A stretch of 45,322 bases of DNA, taken from positions 1 to 45,322 of the forward strand of contig JAJZIM010000019.1 of NCBI GenBank assembly GCA_021810565.1, written 5' to 3'. Numbering within the stretch: position 1 is the stretch's first letter; every line of letters begins with the position of its first letter. Source of the DNA: Bacillota bacterium. GTDB taxonomy: Bacteria; Bacillota; Sulfobacillia; JAJZIM01. Below, in pieces: positions 12,991 to 39,305 of this stretch. Both the position numbers and the translations under genes were made by a program. The notes beneath the pieces are model-generated. The model worked only from the letters and a program-made list of their open reading frames with translations, did not search any database and had not been told where the DNA came from.

Positions 12991-13950
12991 TCACTCCCAG
13001 TAGCGCAGCAGGTTCTCCCCCCCTATGCCGGGGTGCAGGGCGCCGTTGATCCCCCCCGCCACCACCCGGGAAAGGTCGTCCATGAGGACATCGATCTCCT
13101 TGGGGGTGACCATCAGGTCCCCCACGGCGGGCGGCAGCACCTCCCGCAGCAGCCGGCGGCTCTCCCCCTGGTCCAGGCCGGCCAGGGCGGTACGCACCGG
13201 TCCGTCCTCGCCCTCCCGCAGCCGCTCCAAGGCGTCCTCCACGATGGTGGCGGCATGCACCACGGTGGGAACCCCCAGGGCCGTCACCGGCACCCCCAAG
13301 GTCTCCCGGTCGATCTCGGTCCGGTGGTTGCCCACCCCCGATCCCGGTCGCACCCCCGCGTCGGTCAGCTGGATGGTGGTGGTGATGCGCGCCACGGAGC
13401 GGGAGGCCAGGGCGTCCACGGCCACCACCGCGGCGGGCCGGACCCGGTCCACGATGCCGCGGACGATCTCCCCCGTCTCGATGCCGGTCAGCCCCAGCAC
13501 CCCCGGCGCCACGGCACACACCGGCCGCAGCCGGCCCGCCACCTCCCGGGGCGCGAACTCCCCCAGGTGCCTGGTCACCAGGATGGAGCCCACCACCCGC
13601 GGCCCCAGGGCGTCCGGGGTGGCATTCCAGTTGCCCAGCCCCACCACCAGCACCAACGCGTCGGACTCCAGCCGCAGCAGCCCGGCCAGCTCCTCCGCCA
13701 GCAGCCGGGCCACCGCCTCCTGCACCTGCCGGTCCCGACGGCGCAGCTGGGAAGACTCCAAGGTGACGTAGGTGCCCGGGGCTTTGCCCATGGCCGCCTC
13801 CCCCCGCCGGTCCAGGATCTCCACCCGGGTAACGGTCACCGCACCGCGCTGCTCCTCCCGCCACCGCACGCCGGGGATTTCCCCCGCCCCACCCTCCCGC
13901 AGGAAGGCATGCACCTCCGCCGCCAGATCGCTGCGCACGCTGCGTCCCAT
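12991..13950 (-). CDS. gpr: Spore germination protease GPR
   Basis: A 319-residue protease that degrades small acid-soluble proteins during germination. Conserved segments are NWNATPDALGP (D113), VVAVDALASRS (D179), TTIQLTDAGVRPGSGVGN and the C-terminal VTPKEIDVLMDDL and INGALHPG. The two aspartates match those implicated in catalysis in Bacillus GPR. Only four residues precede the VRSDLA segment that begins the mature enzyme in Bacillus (VRTDLA there, after about 15 residues of propeptide), so the propeptide is very short. GAGGAG lies eight bases before the ATG. It converges on the G1 peptidase gene with a three-base gap. Together with the T-box this identifies a spore-forming Firmicute. Confidence 0.95.
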   Translation of the reverse strand: MGRSVRSDLAAEVHAFLREGGAGEIPGVRWREEQRGAVTVTRVEILDRRGEAAMGKAPGTYVTLESSQLRRRDRQVQEAVARLLAEELAGLLRLESDALVLVVGLGNWNATPDALGPRVVGSILVTRHLGEFAPREVAGRLRPVCAVAPGVLGLTGIETGEIVRGIVDRVRPAAVVAVDALASRSVARITTTIQLTDAGVRPGSGVGNHRTEIDRETLGVPVTALGVPTVVHAATIVEDALERLREGEDGPVRTALAGLDQGESRRLLREVLPPAVGDLMVTPKEIDVLMDDLSRVVAGGINGALHPGIGGENLLRYWE

Positions 13951-14133
13951 GCCACCGCTCCTCGTCCGTCTTTTCCGCTCTAGCCTGTTCCCGCCCGCCC
14001 CCGCCTATGCGCCGTGCCCGGGCTTTTGGCATCCGCCGGCGCGGCACCCCTCCCGGGGACGGCGAGGGTGGACTAGCGACTCCGAGGCCGCCTCGTCGGC
14101 GGTTCAGGGGCCGCGAATAGCCGAAAAGCAGCC

Positions 14134-14162
14134 TTGCGGGCGCCCCATGCCCATGCTATAAT
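14134..14162 (+). promoter_or_regulatory. Promoter of the first nucleotidyltransferase-HEPN gene
   Basis: TTGCGG (14134-14139), a 17-bp spacer and a perfect TATAAT (14157-14162). The same layout, with weaker -10 boxes, precedes the other two copies. The spacer 13951-14216 holds no gene. Confidence 0.72.
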
Positions 14163-14216
14163 TGGTAAGGCTAACTTAGTTTGGGGCAAGGCGCAGGCCC
14201 CATGGGAGGAACCTTA

Positions 14217-15053
14217 ATGATGGGCGGTACGGCGGCAATCACCGCAACGAGGACGTTGGACCGGGCGGAGCGGGCGGTGGCCGACGCCCTGGCCCGGCGG
14301 CTGGCCGCGGCCTACCCTCAGGACCTGTTGGAGGTGCGCGTCTTCGGATCCCGGGCCAGGGGCGACCACCGGGAGGACTCCGACCTGGACGTGGCGGTGA
14401 TCGTCGCAAACCCACGCCCGCGGCGAACAGATATCCTGGACCTGGCCCGGGCTGCCGAGGACGAAGGCGGCTATCCCCACCTCGTAGACCCGCACCCGCA
14501 CACCTTGAAGGATTTCCGCTACTTCCAGGCCACCAACAGCCTGTACTACCGCACCATGCGCGACGATGGCGTCACCATATGGCGAAAACCCGGAGTGGAC
14601 CTGTGGGACGAAAAGGAGGTGCAGCCGATGGGGCGGGAGCTTGACGTCGAGCAGGAACTCAGGAAGGCACATCAGGACCTCCAGATGGCCGGGATAGCTC
14701 TGGATGCACAGATGCTGGACGGGGCTGGCCCCTCGGCATATTACGCGGCCTTCCACGCGGTTAAAGCCGCCCTTTTGACCCGGGGCCTGGAGGCAAAGAC
14801 CCACCGGGGTGTGCAAACCTTGTTCTCGCAACATCTCGTCAAGTCCGGCGCGGTGCCGCCCCACTGCAGCACCTGGCTATCCAACCTGGAGGCGGTTCGC
14901 AACCATGCGGATTATCCCGATGCATGGGAATACGAACCTCTCGAGCGCGACGAGGTGGAAAAGGCCCTGGAACACTCCCGATCCATGGTCGCCGACCTGG
15001 AACGGCTCTGCCGGGACTGGCTGGAGCGGCAACGCCCCGAACCCGGCAGTTGA
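14217..15053 (+). CDS. Fused nucleotidyltransferase-HEPN protein, copy 1
   Basis: A 278-residue two-domain protein. The N-terminal half (about 15-120) is a minimal nucleotidyltransferase of the DNA polymerase beta fold, with GSRARGDHREDSDLD (G44, S45, D56, D58), the metal-binding core of MNT antitoxins. The C-terminal half (about 140-265) is a HEPN/UPF0332-like helical domain with SAYYAAFHAVKAALL and VRNHADY. The canonical HEPN RNase motif (Arg, four to six residues, His) is not present. In MntA-HepT systems these two domains are separate antitoxin and toxin; here they are joined. ATG 14217 is chosen because GGGAGGA lies six bases upstream. It is the first of three tandem paralogues and has the strongest promoter. 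Confidence 0.85.
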   Translation: MMGGTAAITATRTLDRAERAVADALARRLAAAYPQDLLEVRVFGSRARGDHREDSDLDVAVIVANPRPRRTDILDLARAAEDEGGYPHLVDPHPHTLKDFRYFQATNSLYYRTMRDDGVTIWRKPGVDLWDEKEVQPMGRELDVEQELRKAHQDLQMAGIALDAQMLDGAGPSAYYAAFHAVKAALLTRGLEAKTHRGVQTLFSQHLVKSGAVPPHCSTWLSNLEAVRNHADYPDAWEYEPLERDEVEKALEHSRSMVADLERLCRDWLERQRPEPGS

Positions 15054-15498
15054 TCTCGCACCAGGTTTCCGTCTCCGAGGGGAGACCCCCCGCTAGACGG
15101 CTCCGCCGGCCCTTCCGGCCTTGGCCCGGAAACTGTGCTTGGAAGCGATCCTGTCGCATCGCTCCGTGATCATGGCGGCGCCACTGGCCGGCGGTGGTCG
15201 CGCCCAAGCCGCGGTGGCCGAAAAACAACTTTGCGCAACGCGCAGGCCCGTGCCATAACCGGTAGCCTTGAGGGAACCTGGGGCCAGGCGCGAGCGTCAC
15301 GGGAGGGAGGAACAAATGATGGGCGATGCGGCAGCCACCGCAACGAGGAGCTTGGGCCGGGCGGAGCGGGCGGTGGCCGACGCCCTGGTCCGGCGGCTGG
15401 CCGCGGCCTACCCTCAGGACCTGTTGGAGGTGCGCGTCTTCGGCTCCCGGGCCAGGGGCGACCACCGGGAGGACTCCGACCTGGACGTGGCGGTGATC
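14988..15498 (+). repeat. Tandem duplication segment, copy A
   Basis: About 510 bp running from the last codons of nucleotidyltransferase-HEPN copy 1 through the spacer into the nucleotidyltransferase motif of copy 2. It is nearly identical to 16087-16599, apart from scattered substitutions and small length changes. It includes a hairpin (GTCTCC, GAGG, GGAGAC), the promoter and the ribosome site. Confidence 0.85.
15231..15259 (+). promoter_or_regulatory. Possible promoter of nucleotidyltransferase-HEPN copy 2
   Basis: TTGCGC (15231-15236), 17-bp spacer, CATAAC (15254-15259). It is homologous to the stronger promoter of copy 1. Confidence 0.45.
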
Positions 15499-16152
15499 CT
15501 GGCCGAATGCGACCCCCAACGCGAGGACCAGGTTAGGGAATTCGCCGCAACGGCGTCGGAAGCGATGGGCTACCGGCACTTTGTGAACACGCATCCGCAT
15601 TCCCTGGCGGAAATCCGCTACTTCCATGCCACCAACAGCCTCTACTATCGCGGCCTGCGCGACGACGGTATTGCGGTATGGCGAAAACCCGGGGTGGACC
15701 TGTGGGACGAAACGGGGGTGCAGCCGATGGGGAGGGAACTTGATGTCGAACAGGAACTTGGCAAGGCACATCAGGACCTCCAGATGGCCAGGATAGCTCT
15801 GGATGCACAGATGCTGGACGGGGTCGGCCATTCGGCCTACTACGCCGCCTTCCATGCGATCACGGCGGCTTTGCTGACCCGGGGACGGGAGTCGAAGTCG
15901 CACGAGGGGACCTTGGACCTGTTCAGCGCCCAGTTCGCCAACCAGGGGCTGGTGCCCAAGGAATACGCCCAGCGGGCGGCAAGGCTGTATGACCTGCGCC
16001 TTAAGGCGGATTATCCTAGACAGTTCCAGTATGTACGGATCACGAAGCAGCAAGCGCAAACGGCCATCCACCACGCGGAGGAGCTGGTGGCCGACCTGGA
16101 ACGGCTCTGTCGGGACTGGCTGGAGCGGCAACGCTCCGAACCCGGCAGTTGA
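15316..16152 (+). CDS. Fused nucleotidyltransferase-HEPN protein, copy 2
   Basis: A 278-residue paralogue with the same GSRARGDHREDSDLD core (G43, S44, D55, D57). The middle (WRKPGVDLWDE through QMLDG) is almost identical to copy 1, but the HEPN part from about residue 190 diverges strongly (RGRESKSHEGTLDLF, YDLRLKADYP). A conserved HLVD in copies 1 and 3 reads HFVN here, so a possible third acidic residue of the nucleotidyltransferase site is asparagine; that role is my guess. The start ATG 15316 follows GGGAGGGAGGA; a second ATG follows at once. The variable HEPN half beside a constant N-terminus suggests diversification of the partner-binding part. Confidence 0.85.
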   Translation: MMGDAAATATRSLGRAERAVADALVRRLAAAYPQDLLEVRVFGSRARGDHREDSDLDVAVILAECDPQREDQVREFAATASEAMGYRHFVNTHPHSLAEIRYFHATNSLYYRGLRDDGIAVWRKPGVDLWDETGVQPMGRELDVEQELGKAHQDLQMARIALDAQMLDGVGHSAYYAAFHAITAALLTRGRESKSHEGTLDLFSAQFANQGLVPKEYAQRAARLYDLRLKADYPRQFQYVRITKQQAQTAIHHAEELVADLERLCRDWLERQRSEPGS

Positions 16153-16599
16153 TCTCGCACCAGGTTTCCGTCTCCGAGGGGAGACCCCCGCTAGACGGCT
16201 CCGCCGATCCTTCCGGCCTTGGTCCGGAAACTGTGCCTGGAGCCGATCCCGTCGCATCGCTTCGTGATCATGGCGGCGCCACTGGCCGACGGCGGTCACC
16301 CCCAAGCCACGGTGGCCGAAGAACAACTTTGCGCAACGCGCAGGCCCGTGCCATAACCGGTAGCCTTGAGTGAACCTGGGGCCAGGCGCGAGCGTCACGG
16401 GAGGGAGGAACAAATGATGGGCGATGCGGCGGCAGCCACCGCAACGAGGAGCTTGGACCGGGCGGAGCGGGCGGTGGCCGACGCCTTGGCCCGGCGGCTG
16501 GCTGCAGCCTACCCTGAGGACCTGTTGGAGGTGCGCGTCTTCGGCTCCCGGGCCAGGGGCGACCACCGGGAGGACTCCGACCTGGACGTGGCGGTGATC
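16087..16599 (+). repeat. Tandem duplication segment, copy B
   Basis: Second copy of the segment at 14988-15498. It spans the end of nucleotidyltransferase-HEPN copy 2, the spacer and the first third of copy 3. The offset between the two is about 1,100 bp, the length of one gene-plus-spacer unit. Confidence 0.85.
16329..16357 (+). promoter_or_regulatory. Possible promoter of nucleotidyltransferase-HEPN copy 3
   Basis: TTGCGC (16329-16334), 17-bp spacer, CATAAC (16352-16357), the same as before copy 2. Confidence 0.45.
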
Positions 16600-17250
16600 G
16601 TCGAAAAACTGCGGCCAGCCCGAACGGAGGTCATGGATCTGGCTTGGGCTGCCGGGGAGGAGACGGACTACCCGCACCTGGTGGATACCCACCTGCTGTC
16701 CCTGTCCGGCTTCCGCCACTTCCAGGCCACCAACAGCCTTTATTACCGAAGCATGCGCGACGACGGCATCACGATATGGCGAAGGGCCGGCCCATACCTG
16801 TGGGACGAGGCGGAGGTGGAGCCGATGGGCAGGGAATCCGATGTGGAGGAGGAGCTGCGGAAGGCCAAGCTGGATCTGGCTCGAGCCCAAAGGGACCTGA
16901 GGGAGAACGATCCGGACGGTGTCGGCCATTCGGCCTACTACGCCGTCTTCCATGCCGTGAAGGCCGCCCTTTTGACCCGGAACCTGGAAGCGAAGACCCA
17001 CCGCGGCGTCCAGGCCCTGTTCTCGCAACACTTCGTCAAACCTGCCGTGGTGCCGTCCGATTACGGCGCCTGGCTCTCCCGCCTGGAAACGCTGCGCTAT
17101 CATGCGGACTACCCCGACCAGTGGGGATATGAACCCCTGGATCGTAAACAGGTGGCGGCAGCCCTGACCCGCGCGGAGGAGATGGTCGCTCAGATGGAAC
17201 GGCTCTGCAGGGACTGGCTGGCGCGGGAACCCTCCGGACCCGCCCGGTGA
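16414..17250 (+). CDS. Fused nucleotidyltransferase-HEPN protein, copy 3
   Basis: A 278-residue paralogue with the same nucleotidyltransferase core (G44, S45, D56, D58). Its middle segment differs from copies 1 and 2 (WRRAGPYLWDEAEVEPMGRE, DLARAQRDLREND), while its HEPN segment (NLEAKTHRGVQALFSQHFVK, LRYHADYPDQW) matches copy 1 rather than copy 2. This exchange of blocks points to gene conversion among the three. ATG 16414 has GGGAGGGAGGA upstream. As in the other copies, the catalytic Arg-x4-6-His of HEPN RNases is absent. A related hairpin (CGGTTTCCC, GA, GGGAACCG) follows the stop. Confidence 0.85.
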   Translation: MMGDAAAATATRSLDRAERAVADALARRLAAAYPEDLLEVRVFGSRARGDHREDSDLDVAVIVEKLRPARTEVMDLAWAAGEETDYPHLVDTHLLSLSGFRHFQATNSLYYRSMRDDGITIWRRAGPYLWDEAEVEPMGRESDVEEELRKAKLDLARAQRDLRENDPDGVGHSAYYAVFHAVKAALLTRNLEAKTHRGVQALFSQHFVKPAVVPSDYGAWLSRLETLRYHADYPDQWGYEPLDRKQVAAALTRAEEMVAQMERLCRDWLAREPSGPAR

Positions 17251-17305
17251 TCCCGCGCCAAGCCGCCGGGAACCATCCGGTTTCCCGAGGGAACCGCTCC
17301 ATGCC

Positions 17306-17321
17306 TCTCGGACGTCCGAGA
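17306..17321. promoter_or_regulatory. 16-bp perfect palindrome, possible operator
   Basis: TCTCGGACGTCCGAGA is a perfect inverted repeat 36 bp upstream of the cytochrome gene start. It could be an operator for a dimeric regulator; no regulator gene lies beside it. Confidence 0.4.
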
Positions 17322-17357
17322 TCCCGCCCGAAAACCGTAGACAAAGGAGTGGTCTTG

Positions 17358-17831
17358 TTGCGTCTTACCGTGATGATGGTGGCAGCCCTGGGATGCGCGG
17401 CGGTGCTTACCGGCTGCGGCAGCCCCCAGGCCGCCCCCGCCCCTGTCGCCCACCCCTCCGTCTTAGCGGCCCCCACCCGGATCCCCGGCGGCAAGGTGGG
17501 CGCGGCCATCCGGGCAGGCAAACGGCTCTTCGCCGACACCGCCCTGGGCAACGGCACCCTCTCGTGCAACTCCTGCCACGCCGACTACGGCACCAAGGCC
17601 AAGAAGCTGTCCACCGGGGCCACCGCGCCCAGCCTGATCGGGGCCGCCGCCACCTTCCCCAAGGTCAGCGTCCGCAGCGGCCAGGTGGTCACCCTGGAGG
17701 AGCACATCCAAAGCTGCATCCAAAATCCCCTCGGCGGGCGGCACCTGGCGGCCAACGACCCGAAGCTGGTGGACCTGACCGCCTACGTCACCTGGCTCAG
17801 CAGCGGTAAACCGGTTTCCCCCGGTAAATAG
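17358..17831 (+). CDS. c-type cytochrome lipoprotein (TsdA/SoxA-like fold)
   Basis: An approximately 157-residue single-haem cytochrome attached outside the membrane. The signal peptide ends in a lipobox (LTGC), and the haem site is CNSCH. The downstream pattern (APSLIGAAATFPKVSVRSG, TLEEHIQSC, LTAYVTWLS) resembles the cytochrome domains of thiosulfate dehydrogenase TsdA or SoxA/SoxX-type proteins, but it is much shorter than TsdA and has one haem. The start is a TTG (17358, or 17355) after AAAGGAG; no ATG fits better. It is not followed by sulfur-oxidation genes, so its donor and acceptor are unknown. It converges on the phosphoketolase gene across a hairpin. Confidence 0.82.
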   Translation: MRLTVMMVAALGCAAVLTGCGSPQAAPAPVAHPSVLAAPTRIPGGKVGAAIRAGKRLFADTALGNGTLSCNSCHADYGTKAKKLSTGATAPSLIGAAATFPKVSVRSGQVVTLEEHIQSCIQNPLGGRHLAANDPKLVDLTAYVTWLSSGKPVSPGK

Positions 17832-17839
17832 CGGCAGGA

Positions 17840-17862
17840 GGCCCGCCCCTCTCGGGCGGGCC
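17840..17862. terminator. Hairpin between convergent cytochrome and phosphoketolase genes
   Basis: A nine-bp GC stem (17840-17848 with 17854-17862) with loop CTCTC. The trailing T content is poor in either direction (TTGCTC on the + side), so it is a probable but not classical terminator, perhaps serving both genes. Confidence 0.6.
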
Positions 17863-17866
17863 TTGC

Positions 17867-20272
17867 TCATCGCGGCAGCTGCGGCCAGGTCCAATCCCCA
17901 ATCTCGGGGGGATCCTCCCCGTGCTCCCGGGCGTACTCCAGATGCTGGGTGATCAGGTCTTGGAGCTCGCCCTTGCAGTGGTCCCCGGCGGAGCCAAGCT
18001 TGGGCAGGCGGTCGATGGCGTCGATGGCCAGGGTGAAGCGGTCCACCTGGTTCATGATGGCCAGCTGGAGGTGGGTGTTGATCCCCCCGGCCTCCTTGTA
18101 GCCGCGCACGTGGATGTCGTGCTGGTGGCGCCGCCGGTAGGTGAGCTTGTGGATCAGCATGGGGTAGCCGTGGAAGTCGCACACCACCGGCGTGCCGGGG
18201 GGGAACAGCGTCTCAAAGTCCCGGTCGGACAGCCCGTGGGGATGCTCGCTTTGCGGCTGCAGCCGAAACAGGTCCACCACGTTGACGAAGCGGATGGCAA
18301 GTTCGGGAAAGCGCTGGCGCAAAAGGGCGGTGGCCGCCAGGGCCTCCACCGTCACCGTGTCGCCTATTCCCACCATCACCAGGTCCGGCGAGCGGTCCTG
18401 GTCGTTGGAGGCCCAGTCCCAGATGCCGATGCCCTTGGTGCAATGGCGCACCGCGGCGTCGGCGTCCAGGAACTGCAGCTGGGGCTGCTTGTCCGCCACG
18501 ATCACGTTCACGTAGTCGGTGCTGGCCAGGCAGTGGTCCGCCACGCTCAACAGGCAGTTGGCGTCGGGGGGCAGGTAGATCCGCACCACCCCGGCCTGCT
18601 TGTTGGTCACCAGGTCCAGGAAGCCCGGATCCTGATGGGTGAAGCCGTTGTGGTCCTGGCGCCACACCGTGGAGCTGATCAGCAGGTTCAGGGAGGAGAT
18701 GGGGGCGCGCCAGGGCACCTCCGTCTTGGCCTTCTCGATCCACTTGGCGTGCTGGTTGACCATGGAGTCGATGACGTGGGCGAAGGCCTCGTAGGAGTTG
18801 AGCAGGCCGTGCCGGCCGGTCAAGAGATAGCCCTCCAGCCAGCCCTCCAGGGTGTGCTCGCTCAGCATCTCCATCACCCGCCCGTCGAGAGCCAGGTGGC
18901 CGCCGTCGTCGTCCTGCGGCAGGCGCTCCGCCAGCCAGGTCTTTCCGGTGACCTCGTAGACGGCCTGCAGGCGGTTGGAGGCGGTCTCGTCGGGCCCGAA
19001 CACCCGGAAGTTGTCGGGATTGTCCCGCAGGATGTCCCGCAGGAAGCGCCCCAGCACCGCGGTGTCCTCCTCCCGGGTGGTGCCGGGCCGCTCCACCGGC
19101 ACGGCATACTCCTTGAAGGGCGGCAGCCGCAGCGGTTTGCGCAGAAGCCCCCCGTTGGCATGAGGATTGGCGCTGATGCGCCGGGACCCGGCATTGGCCA
19201 AGGCCGCCAGGCGAGGAATAAGCCGACCGTCCGCGTCGAACAGCTCCCCCGGCCGATAGCTTTGCAGCCAGCGCTCCACCAGGGCCAGGTGGGCCGGGTT
19301 CTCCCGGGCGTCCAGGATGGGGATCTGGTGGGCACGCCAGGAGCCCTCGATGCGATGGCCGTCCACCTCCCGGGGGGCGGTCCATCCCTTGGGGCTGATC
19401 AGGATGATCATGGGCCAGCGGTGGCGAGCCGCCTCCCCGCCGTGGCGCGAGTGCCGCTGGATCTCGCGGATGTCGCGCAGGCACTCCTCCGCCACCGCCG
19501 CCATCCGCCGGTGCATGGCCTCGGGCTCCTCCCCCTCCACCACGTGGGGAGTGTAGCCGTAGCCCTGCATCAGGTGCAACAGCTCCTCGCGGCTGATGCG
19601 CGCCAGCACGGTGGGGTTGGCGATCTTGTAGCCGTTCAGGTGGAGGATGGGCAGCACCGCGCCGTCCCGCGCCGGGTTGAGGAACTTGTTGGAGTGCCAG
19701 GCGGTGGCCGCCGGTCCGGTCTCGGCCTCCCCGTCGCCCACCACCGCTGCCACCAGCAGCTCCGGGTTGTCGAAGGCGGCCCCGAAGGCGTGGGACAGGC
19801 TGTAGCCGAGCTCTCCCCCCTCGTGGATCGAGCCGGGGGTCTCCGGGGTGCAGTGGCTGCCCACCCCCCCGGGGAAGGAGAACAGCTTGCAAAAGCGGCG
19901 CAGCCCCTCCTCGTCCCGGCTGCGGTCCGGGTAGACCTCGGAGTAGGTGCCCTCCAGGTAGGCGTTGGCCAGCACGGCCGGGGCGCCGTGGCCAGGCCCG
20001 GCCACGTACAAAAGGTTCAGGTCGTGGCGAGCGATCAGCCGGTTGAGGTGGGTCAGGATGAAGGTCTGCCCCGGGTCCGAGCCCCAGTGGCCCAAGAGCC
20101 GCGGCTTGATGTCCTCGGGGCGCAGGGGCCGGCGCAACAGGGGATTGTCCTGGAGGTAGAGCATGGCCAGGCACAGGTAGTTGGCGGCGCTCCACCAGTC
20201 GTTCAGGTCCTCGAGCTCGCGGGCCGACAGGACCTCCGCGGGAGCCGGGGCGGTGCCGGAAACCGCAGGCAT
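17867..20272 (-). CDS. xfp: Phosphoketolase (xylulose-5-P/fructose-6-P)
   Basis: An 801-residue thiamine-diphosphate enzyme that splits xylulose 5-phosphate or fructose 6-phosphate with inorganic phosphate into acetyl phosphate plus glyceraldehyde 3-phosphate or erythrose 4-phosphate. Landmarks: [36 protein letters not shown], the TPP loop [19 protein letters not shown], and in the second half [35 protein letters not shown] and the C-terminal domain [16 protein letters not shown]. Length matches the family. The start ATG at 20272 is chosen because GAGAGGAG lies eight bases upstream. It diverges from ackA, whose product turns acetyl phosphate into acetate and ATP; the two form a short energy pathway. 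Confidence 0.97.
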
Positions 20273-37781: not shown

Positions 37782-38734
37782 ACCACACAGGCCGGGCGAA
37801 CAGTTTTCCCGACCGTTATCCGGGCGTAGCGGGGCGACCTCTCCCGCAGGGCGGCCTTCTTCTTCCGAAAGTCCAGCTCCTCCACCACCAGGGGCTTGCC
37901 GGTAAGCCGGGCCCAGTCCACGATGTCCGCCGCAGCTTCCGCGAGGATGGCCGTGGCCTTAACTTCGGTCTTCTTGGCCAGGCCCAGGGGAAAAGACCGG
38001 ACACCCACGGGATTCCCGAAGCGGTCGAGCTCGCCCACGTCCACGTGGGCCGGGTGGCAGTCCACCCTCAGGGCTCCCAGGCGCCGATCCGTGGTTAGCT
38101 TCGCGGCCGGACGCTCCACCGAGGCGTGCACGTACCAGCCCTCCTGGTCGTCGCGCCGCACGAAACGGTAGGTCACCGCCTCCCCGCGGCGCAGGGCGGC
38201 GTCGATCTCCGCTTGGCCGTAGGCGAACTTGACGTCCTTGACCAGGATGTGCTTCCCGAAGGCCGCCTCCAACCCGGGCGGCACCCGCAGACGCAAGGAA
38301 CCCTCCGGCAGGCGGGTGCAGGTCTGGTTGCCCGCCGACTCGTCCTTGGATCCCAGGCACAAAAACTGGGAGGAGCGCCGCCGGCGCCATGCCGCCTGCC
38401 AGGCGGCCAAGTCCGCGAAGCCGTTGGCCTCCCGGTGGAATTGGGCATGGAAAAGCTTCTTCCCTCCGAAGCACAGGCGCACCCGCCCCGCCTCGTGATC
38501 CGCCCGGGCGACGGCAAGGCGTCGTTCCGATGCGTGCAGGCGCCGCCGCTTCTGATGCAGGGTGAAGCGCAGCCGGTGCCACATGGACGCCGCCTGCGCG
38601 CCGCGGGCCTTCTGCTTCCGGAGCTTCGCCAGGTCCCGCTCGGCCTTCCTCACCGCTTTTTTCGCGGCGGCGATGGCGTCCAAGAGCGGGTAGCTGCCCT
38701 TGTCGGGAATTTTCGCCTGATACGTCGCCTGCAT
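37778..38734 (-). pseudogene. tnpB: IS607-type tnpB, 3' truncated
   Basis: About 318 codons of the larger IS607-associated TnpB (RNA-guided nuclease ancestor). Coiled basic region with FTLHQKRRRLHASERRL, GRVRLCFGGKKLFHAQF, SSQFLCLGSKDESAG, VTYRFVRR, the first RuvC acid in LRVDCHPAHVDVGELDRFG and the second in LVVEELDFRKKK. It breaks off after ERSPRYAR, before the third RuvC acid and the zinc finger, and runs into unrelated sequence, so it cannot be a working nuclease. The ATG at 38734 (or TTG 38764) is the likely start. Confidence 0.72.
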
Positions 38735-39305
38735 TACCTTCGGTCCCCTCTCCCGCGGCGGCAATCGTCCGTTTGGCTCGGTTCCTGGCCGACCCGCGGC
38801 CGTAAAGCCTGGCGCAGAAGCTGGTCAGCACGTCGATCATGTCCCGCACCAGGTCGTCCTTCATCTCCTCGGGATCCACCACCAGGAGCTTTCTTCCTTG
38901 CGCGGCCAGCGCCGCCTCCACGTATTCCGCGCCCGGGCGCAGGCGGCGGTCCCGGTGCTCCACGGCTACCACGGATACCTTGGGATCGGCCAGAAGGCGC
39001 AGCAGCTTCGGCCGGTGTCCGTTCAGACCGGACCCCACTTCCCGCACCGTCCGGATCACGGCAATCCCCTGCGTGTTGAGGTGCTCCACCACCCGCACGA
39101 CCTGCCGGTCCAGATCCCCCGCCTGATCGGTCGAAGACACCCGGGCGTATATGGCGGCGGTGTTCGCCGCGGGCTTGACCTCCTTCACTAATATGGTCCC
39201 GGTGGGAAACTGCTCGGCGGCCACCGGCAGCTTGCCGTCCCGGAACCACCGCCAGGCCGTGCGGTAACTCACTCCCTGCTCCTTGGCCCACTGACTCAGT
39301 TTCAT
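37959..39305 (-). CDS. tnpA: IS607-family serine recombinase TnpA
   Basis: The N-terminus is a MerR-like helix-turn-helix (MKLSQWAKEQGVSYRTAWRW), followed by the catalytic domain with AIYARVSSTDQ (nucleophile S57), VREVGSGLNGHRPKLLRLL, VVAVEHRDR and DDLVRDMIDVLTSFCARLYGRGSARNRAKR. Recognisable homology ends about residue 190 (near 38735). The frame then stays open for about 250 more codons across tnpB in a different frame, which looks like an artefact of high GC and a lost stop; family members are about 200 residues. The ATG at 39305 has no ribosome site. Promotes transposition of the element. Confidence 0.75.
   Translation of the reverse strand: MKLSQWAKEQGVSYRTAWRWFRDGKLPVAAEQFPTGTILVKEVKPAANTAAIYARVSSTDQAGDLDRQVVRVVEHLNTQGIAVIRTVREVGSGLNGHRPKLLRLLADPKVSVVAVEHRDRRLRPGAEYVEAALAAQGRKLLVVDPEEMKDDLVRDMIDVLTSFCARLYGRGSARNRAKRTIAAAGEGTEGNAGDVSGENSRQGQLPALGRHRRREKSGEEGRAGPGEAPEAEGPRRAGGVHVAPAALHPASEAAAPARIGTTPCRRPGGSRGGAGAPVLRREEAFPCPIPPGGQRLRGLGRLAGGMAPAALLPVFVPGIQGRVGGQPDLHPPAGGFLASAGAARVGGGLREAHPGQGRQVRLRPSGDRRRPAPRGGGDLPFRAARRPGGLVRARLGGASGREANHGSAPGSPEGGLPPGPRGRGRARPLRESRGCPVFSPGPGQEDRS

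Follow-up and report, generated by a model that had tools for sequence, protein, structure and literature searches.

The gene array

The window, i.e. the whole stretch of 45,322 nucleotides that was analysed from a Bacillota bacterium of the class Sulfobacillia, contains three genes arranged head to tail, each of which encodes a minimal nucleotidyltransferase (NT, MNT) domain followed by a HEPN domain in one polypeptide. The features discussed below are:

14157-14162, + strand: TATAAT, possible but weak -10 element 5' of copy 1, read by eye only
14217-15053, + strand: copy 1, fused MNT-HEPN gene, 278 aa; NT at approximately 14313-14462, HEPN at approximately 14649-15005
14397-14516, + strand: variable segment I of copy 1, codons 61-100, second half of NT; counterparts in copies 2 and 3
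14778-14996, + strand: variable segment II of copy 1, codons 188-260, later HEPN helices; counterparts in copies 2 and 3
15054-15315, no strand: spacer 1-2, 262 bp, within the tandem repeat unit
15316-16152, + strand: copy 2, fused MNT-HEPN gene, 278 aa; NT at approximately 15412-15522, HEPN at approximately 15757-16104
16153-16413, no strand: spacer 2-3, 261 bp, within the tandem repeat unit
16414-17250, + strand: copy 3, fused MNT-HEPN gene, 278 aa; NT at approximately 16510-16692, HEPN at approximately 16846-17199

The tandem repeat unit comprises 1,098-1,099 bp including the spacer of approximately 262 bp, and all three open reading frames start with ATG-ATG downstream of a GGGAGG-type ribosome site. 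Compared to copy 1, copies 2 and 3 show 67% and 69% amino acid identity, respectively. A preliminary description of this DNA had reported three tandem NT-HEPN fusions of 278 residues, which is correct: the three frames exist, both Pfam domains are found above their cut-offs in each, and fusion as well as triplication are real features. The separate promoters that it assumed for the three copies could not be recovered, because a sigma-70 consensus scan reported none, the TATAAT of copy 1 included, and this element, situated 55 bp upstream of the gene, is replaced by CATAAC at the homologous site before copies 2 and 3 (read by eye). Rfam gave no match over positions 13000-18500, and no tRNA was found across the window.

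Domains, motifs and predicted structure

PF01909 (NTP_transf_2) was detected in all three proteins from residue 33 onwards (E 4e-8 to 9e-10), accompanied in each copy by a match to the nucleotidyltransferase model PF18765, and PF05168 (HEPN) covers residues ~145-263 in all three (E 2e-18 to 5e-18), all above the Pfam cut-offs. The GSx10DxD motif (GSRARGDHREDSDLD) is intact and the same in copies 1-3. It had been proposed before that an inactive NT site would speak against the system; judged from the sequences, the core motif is intact and the third acidic residue uncertain. Position 91 is D, N and D in copies 1, 2 and 3, A in the single-copy relative L014, and an acidic residue at this position is not conserved among the fused relatives, while in the MNTs of two-gene systems a D aligns two residues before position 91 in part of them and is absent in others.

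In the HEPN half of all three copies, R228-x3-D232-Y233 is present and Rx4-6H is absent, hence motif check and alignments both bear out the earlier statement that the RNase motif is missing. The 40 fused and unfused proteins compared show no variation at Y175, Y176, H196, R228, D232 and Y233 (numbered as in copy 1), and all six of these class II HEPN residues are kept in copies 1, 2 and 3. A loss of the RNase site through the fusion was considered and rejected, since unfused relatives are without Rx4-6H as well; because R-x3-D-Y takes its place in the two-gene pairs too, its absence is a trait of the family and not a result of the fusion. Our alignments thus agree with published work. Pairs of PF05168 HEPN and MNT proteins have been assigned to class II, with GSX10DXD in the MNT and with a HEPN protein that lacks RX4HXY and has a conserved Tyr (PMC7641770). 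In Table 1 of PMC3710099, the same PF05168 family appears under 'standalone versions and fusions to MNT'; several cases have D where H would be expected, and elsewhere an H is conserved.

Measured against this class II definition, all three proteins combine PF05168 with PF01909, and they have GSx10DxD in the MNT part and a HEPN part without RX4HXY but with the conserved Tyr. With class II pairs (PF05168 + PF01909; COG2250/COG1708) they share the domain order, GSx10DxD, R-x3-D-Y and the other invariant HEPN residues. The difference is that the pairs consist of two separate, overlapping genes with the MNT upstream, whereas MNT and HEPN are joined here in a single open reading frame that exists in three tandem mosaic copies, for which reason we file the array as a fused variant and not as a standard pair. 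It is very probable that each gene represents a complete fused class II (PF05168-type) HEPN/MNT module in one polypeptide. The HEPN-MNT fusions in PMC3710099 belong to the same architecture class and are also without Rx4-6H in HEPN, a likeness at the level of architecture.

An AlphaFold2 model of copy 1 was calculated from an alignment of 40 rows (A6) and reached a mean pLDDT of 92.0 and a pTM of 0.84; a mixed alignment of 83 rows (A3) was set aside, since its MNT-only rows were misaligned in the second half. The best PDB match of the HEPN half is 2hsb, a PF05168 HEPN protein (target-normalised TM 0.91), and by sequence both 2hsb and entry 9xbd, the latter with its HEPN chain and its NT chain, are among the PDB relatives. 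With the whole chain, AAD(9), AadA, ANT and KNTase (E ~1e-4, TM ~0.45) and the HalB structures 9dbj and 9dbh (E ~1e-4, TM 0.4-0.5, rmsd 9-11 A) were matched. These whole-chain matches share the layout of NT plus helical domain, not family membership.

Named families were rejected by their own models. AadA, AAD(9), ANT(4') and KNTase likewise carry NT and then an all-helical domain in one chain, but the identity is only ~10%, and with 12-16 bits the scores from the ANT models are far below the cut-offs of 340-500. Hailong HalB, which also combines NT with a helical domain, is a weak structural match, its NCBIfam model is matched partially over ~28 residues with 21-30 bits against a cut-off of 190, and no effector partner was recognised among the flanking frames tested. 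The class I type VII HepT/MntA system also pairs a GSx10DxD nucleotidyltransferase with a HEPN domain; however, it uses two genes and a PF01934/PF08780 HEPN with RX4HXY, whereas the HEPN here is PF05168 with R-x3-D-Y and without Rx4-6H, and the MntA NCBIfam model gives 33-34 bits against a cut-off of 60.

Mosaic structure of the three copies

The similarity between the copies is distributed very unevenly. In windows of 20 codons, the nucleotide identity between copies 1 and 2 is 89-98% over codons 1-60, 47-60% over codons 61-100, 82-90% over codons 101-180, 43-63% over codons 181-260 and again 96% over codons 261-279, and the pattern along the gene is a different one between copies 1 and 3. 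Segment I shows 47-72% nucleotide identity between the copies compared to 92-100% at codons 21-60, and at the protein level copies 1 and 2 share 34% over codons 188-260 compared to 87% over codons 141-187. The two spacers are 89-100% identical, depending on the window. In a permutation test for shared tracts (310 polymorphic sites, 5,000 permutations), the best tracts were nt 374-510 for copies 1/2 (p <0.0002), nt 555-734 for copies 1/3 (p 0.0006) and nt 763-771 for copies 2/3 (p 0.0018). The three copies are thus mosaics, and this alternation of near-identical tracts with segments of ~45-60% nucleotide identity indicates recombination or gene conversion between tandem paralogues.

The variability of segment I may have other causes, since L014 and L153, two relatives with a single copy, have likewise diverged fastest from each other at codons 61-100 (35% amino acid identity compared to 67% at codons 1-60). 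The same two proteins share 53% over codons 141-187 and 55% over codons 188-260, i.e. they offer no counterpart to the strong contrast between copies 1 and 2 in segment II. No donor sequence was found elsewhere in the own genome. With a GC3 of 0.79-0.82, the three genes lie at the low end of the window genes that were tested (0.74-0.93), a value that does not clearly point to recent import.

Neighbourhood and distribution

In the window, the array is flanked by the gene of an A4-type peptidase, the germination protease (12991-13950, - strand), and then by genes for a SoxA/TsdA-type cytochrome c, phosphoketolase and acetate kinase. Those of the flanking frames tested that matched Pfam belong to metabolism or sporulation, and no toxin-antitoxin (TA), defence or mobile gene was recognised adjoining the array. 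The absence of an obvious partner gene was described correctly. The defence-system reading found no support in the adjacent genes, and PADLOC returned partial NT-domain matches to candidate models and nothing more; a role in defence is possible, and nothing found supports it specifically. A resolvase-type (serine) recombinase is encoded ~20 kb off the array (37962-39305, - strand), with several frames without Pfam match nearby. No empty site could be demonstrated by synteny, for which the neighbouring germination protease was searched in eight genomes of other families (two of them without a hit).

No further copies of the fusion were found in the own genome (assembly 99.4% complete, 115 contigs). 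Within the class, 3 of 154 genomes contain it, namely the window genome with three copies and G035 and G472 with one each, and 398 genomes sampled from the phylum gave no other uninterrupted full-length match. Elsewhere, a Chloroflexi MAG (L048) was found to contain one fusion, and G1636 a divergent one (L197). Samples of 301, 349, 292 and 198 genomes from four further phyla contained no fused array, at thresholds of 1e-18 to 1e-20 that more distant fusions could escape. By contrast, MNT->HEPN gene pairs make up 66 of the best 80 relative loci in the scan of named genomes, next to 12 HEPN-only and 2 fused loci, and all 29 loci in the phylum scan are two-gene pairs. Haloarchaeal relatives on plasmids are annotated as two-gene pairs too; phage records gave no match, and viral contigs no full-length match but three weak partial ones. 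A tree of the HEPN parts places the window copies in one group with full support, and L014 and L153 in a second; the deeper branching is not resolved, so that one and several fusion events look alike.

Some arrangements among the relatives deserve mention on their own. A candidate division WOR-3 locus (L047, 5950-9292) carries two class II MNT-HEPN gene pairs ~2 kb apart as an unfused mini-cluster. At L122 (1468-2220) and L193 (1498-2262), MNT and HEPN frames form one long profile match interrupted by two and one stop codons, respectively, possibly decayed fusions or closely spaced pairs, and at L173 (1483-2279) a HEPN frame is followed by an NT frame on the same strand, so that the usual gene order is inverted.

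In G035 the fused gene is adjoined by a MazE-like/PIN pair and UvrD-like helicase genes, and in G472 (L162, 3702-6662) by a HepT-like (PF01934) gene and a further NT frame on the other strand. Two kinds of HEPN/MNT module are thus found side by side in G472. These TA-type neighbours make a TA-like module the better fit than a housekeeping enzyme. The preliminary description would have given up its proposal if homologues were always single and housekeeping-like: in the genomes surveyed the fused homologues are indeed single-copy, but their occurrence is sporadic and two of them lie beside TA-type genes. The triplicated mosaic array occurs in no other surveyed genome and was not found in the literature consulted. 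The fusion itself is not new, since PF05168-MNT fusions were tabulated already in 2013 (PMC3710099). Hence, the fused form is rare but already described, and the unusual part is the mosaic make-up of shared and divergent tracts in the three copies.

Possible function of the fused modules

By analogy with the MntA-HepT system, in which HepT receives AMP from MntA on a Tyr (PMC7641770), and in view of the conserved Tyr in class II HEPN proteins, we tentatively favour the reading that the array encodes single-chain class II HEPN/MNT modules, triplicated and mosaic, in which the NT half may modify and control the HEPN half. The N-terminal minimal nucleotidyltransferase would bind NTP-Mg via GSx10DxD and transfer NMP onto the HEPN half, in cis or between subunits, most probably onto Y233, the invariant tyrosine of R-x3-D-Y. 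Nucleotidylation would restrain the HEPN half, whose set of Y175, Y176, H196, R228, D232 and Y233 may serve to bind RNA or to cleave it although the canonical Rx4-6H is missing. The outcome would be a stress-response or TA-like switch with an effector and its restraint in one chain. What the analysis shows is the domain content, the intact motifs, the predicted fold, the prevalence of unfused pairs among the relatives, how rare the fusion is, and the mosaicism; catalysis, the modified residue, any RNA target and any toxicity are inferred. The proposal is consistent with the Pfam domains, GSx10DxD and invariant HEPN residues intact in all three copies, with nearest relatives that are overwhelmingly MNT->HEPN pairs, with the confident model and its 2hsb-like HEPN half, and with the TA-type neighbours in G035 and G472. 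Against it count the varying residue at position 91, the lack of an adjoining TA or mobile gene in the window, and the single chain, in which toxin and restraint are inseparable by differential degradation, unlike in ordinary TA pairs. Moreover, MNT-fused HEPN domains have been argued to be usually inactive and substrate-binding (PMC3710099), and the literature found holds neither a published study nor an assay of this fused family.

The main rival is an ANT-like modifying enzyme. Here, a domesticated nucleotidyltransferase would transfer NMP onto a small molecule or protein, comparable to aminoglycoside adenylyltransferases, with HEPN as substrate-binding domain only and the variable segments setting the substrate choice of each of the three paralogues. 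Such a fate has been proposed for MNT-fused HEPN domains in general (PMC3710099), the whole-chain structural matches to AAD(9), AadA, ANT and KNTase fit it, and the later HEPN helices are among the variable segments. Nevertheless, we regard it as rather unlikely, given how far the ANT scores fall below their cut-offs, that sequence and best domain fold match are those of a paired-type PF05168 HEPN with all invariant residues kept, and that TA genes adjoin fused relatives. For a phage-defence signal synthase akin to HalB, which would make an effector-gating oligonucleotide, one could cite the HalB structures among the whole-chain matches and the weak partial NCBIfam match; the low score over a short stretch, the high rmsd and the lack of a recognised effector-like gene among the flanking frames tested make this reading very improbable.

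The triplication itself could also be without a present role, if the copies were tandem duplicates that are neutral or losing their function and that gene conversion keeps similar. The good -10-like element before copy 1 only (by eye), the D/N/D at position 91 and the restriction of the array to one surveyed genome would fit such a scenario. But all three frames are open over their full length, and every copy has retained GSx10DxD and the six HEPN residues although other parts have diverged strongly, which argues for constraint, and we consider neutral duplicates improbable. A touch more doubtful still is the idea of a small recombining family of specificity-diversifying, self-restrained HEPN effectors, in which the conserved catalytic tracts would be homogenised and the two segments swapped or diversified, so that each module might have a different target or trigger.

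Class II HEPN/MNT pairs are widespread, and no mechanism is established for them in the literature found, since the HEPN half is without known RNase motif. The array is a rare fused variant of this known module, triplicated and mosaic; it is useful as a model, yet not a new kind of system. As a natural single-chain version with a fixed 1:1 stoichiometry in three variants, it would be handy for asking whether the MNT modifies class II HEPN proteins and at which residue.
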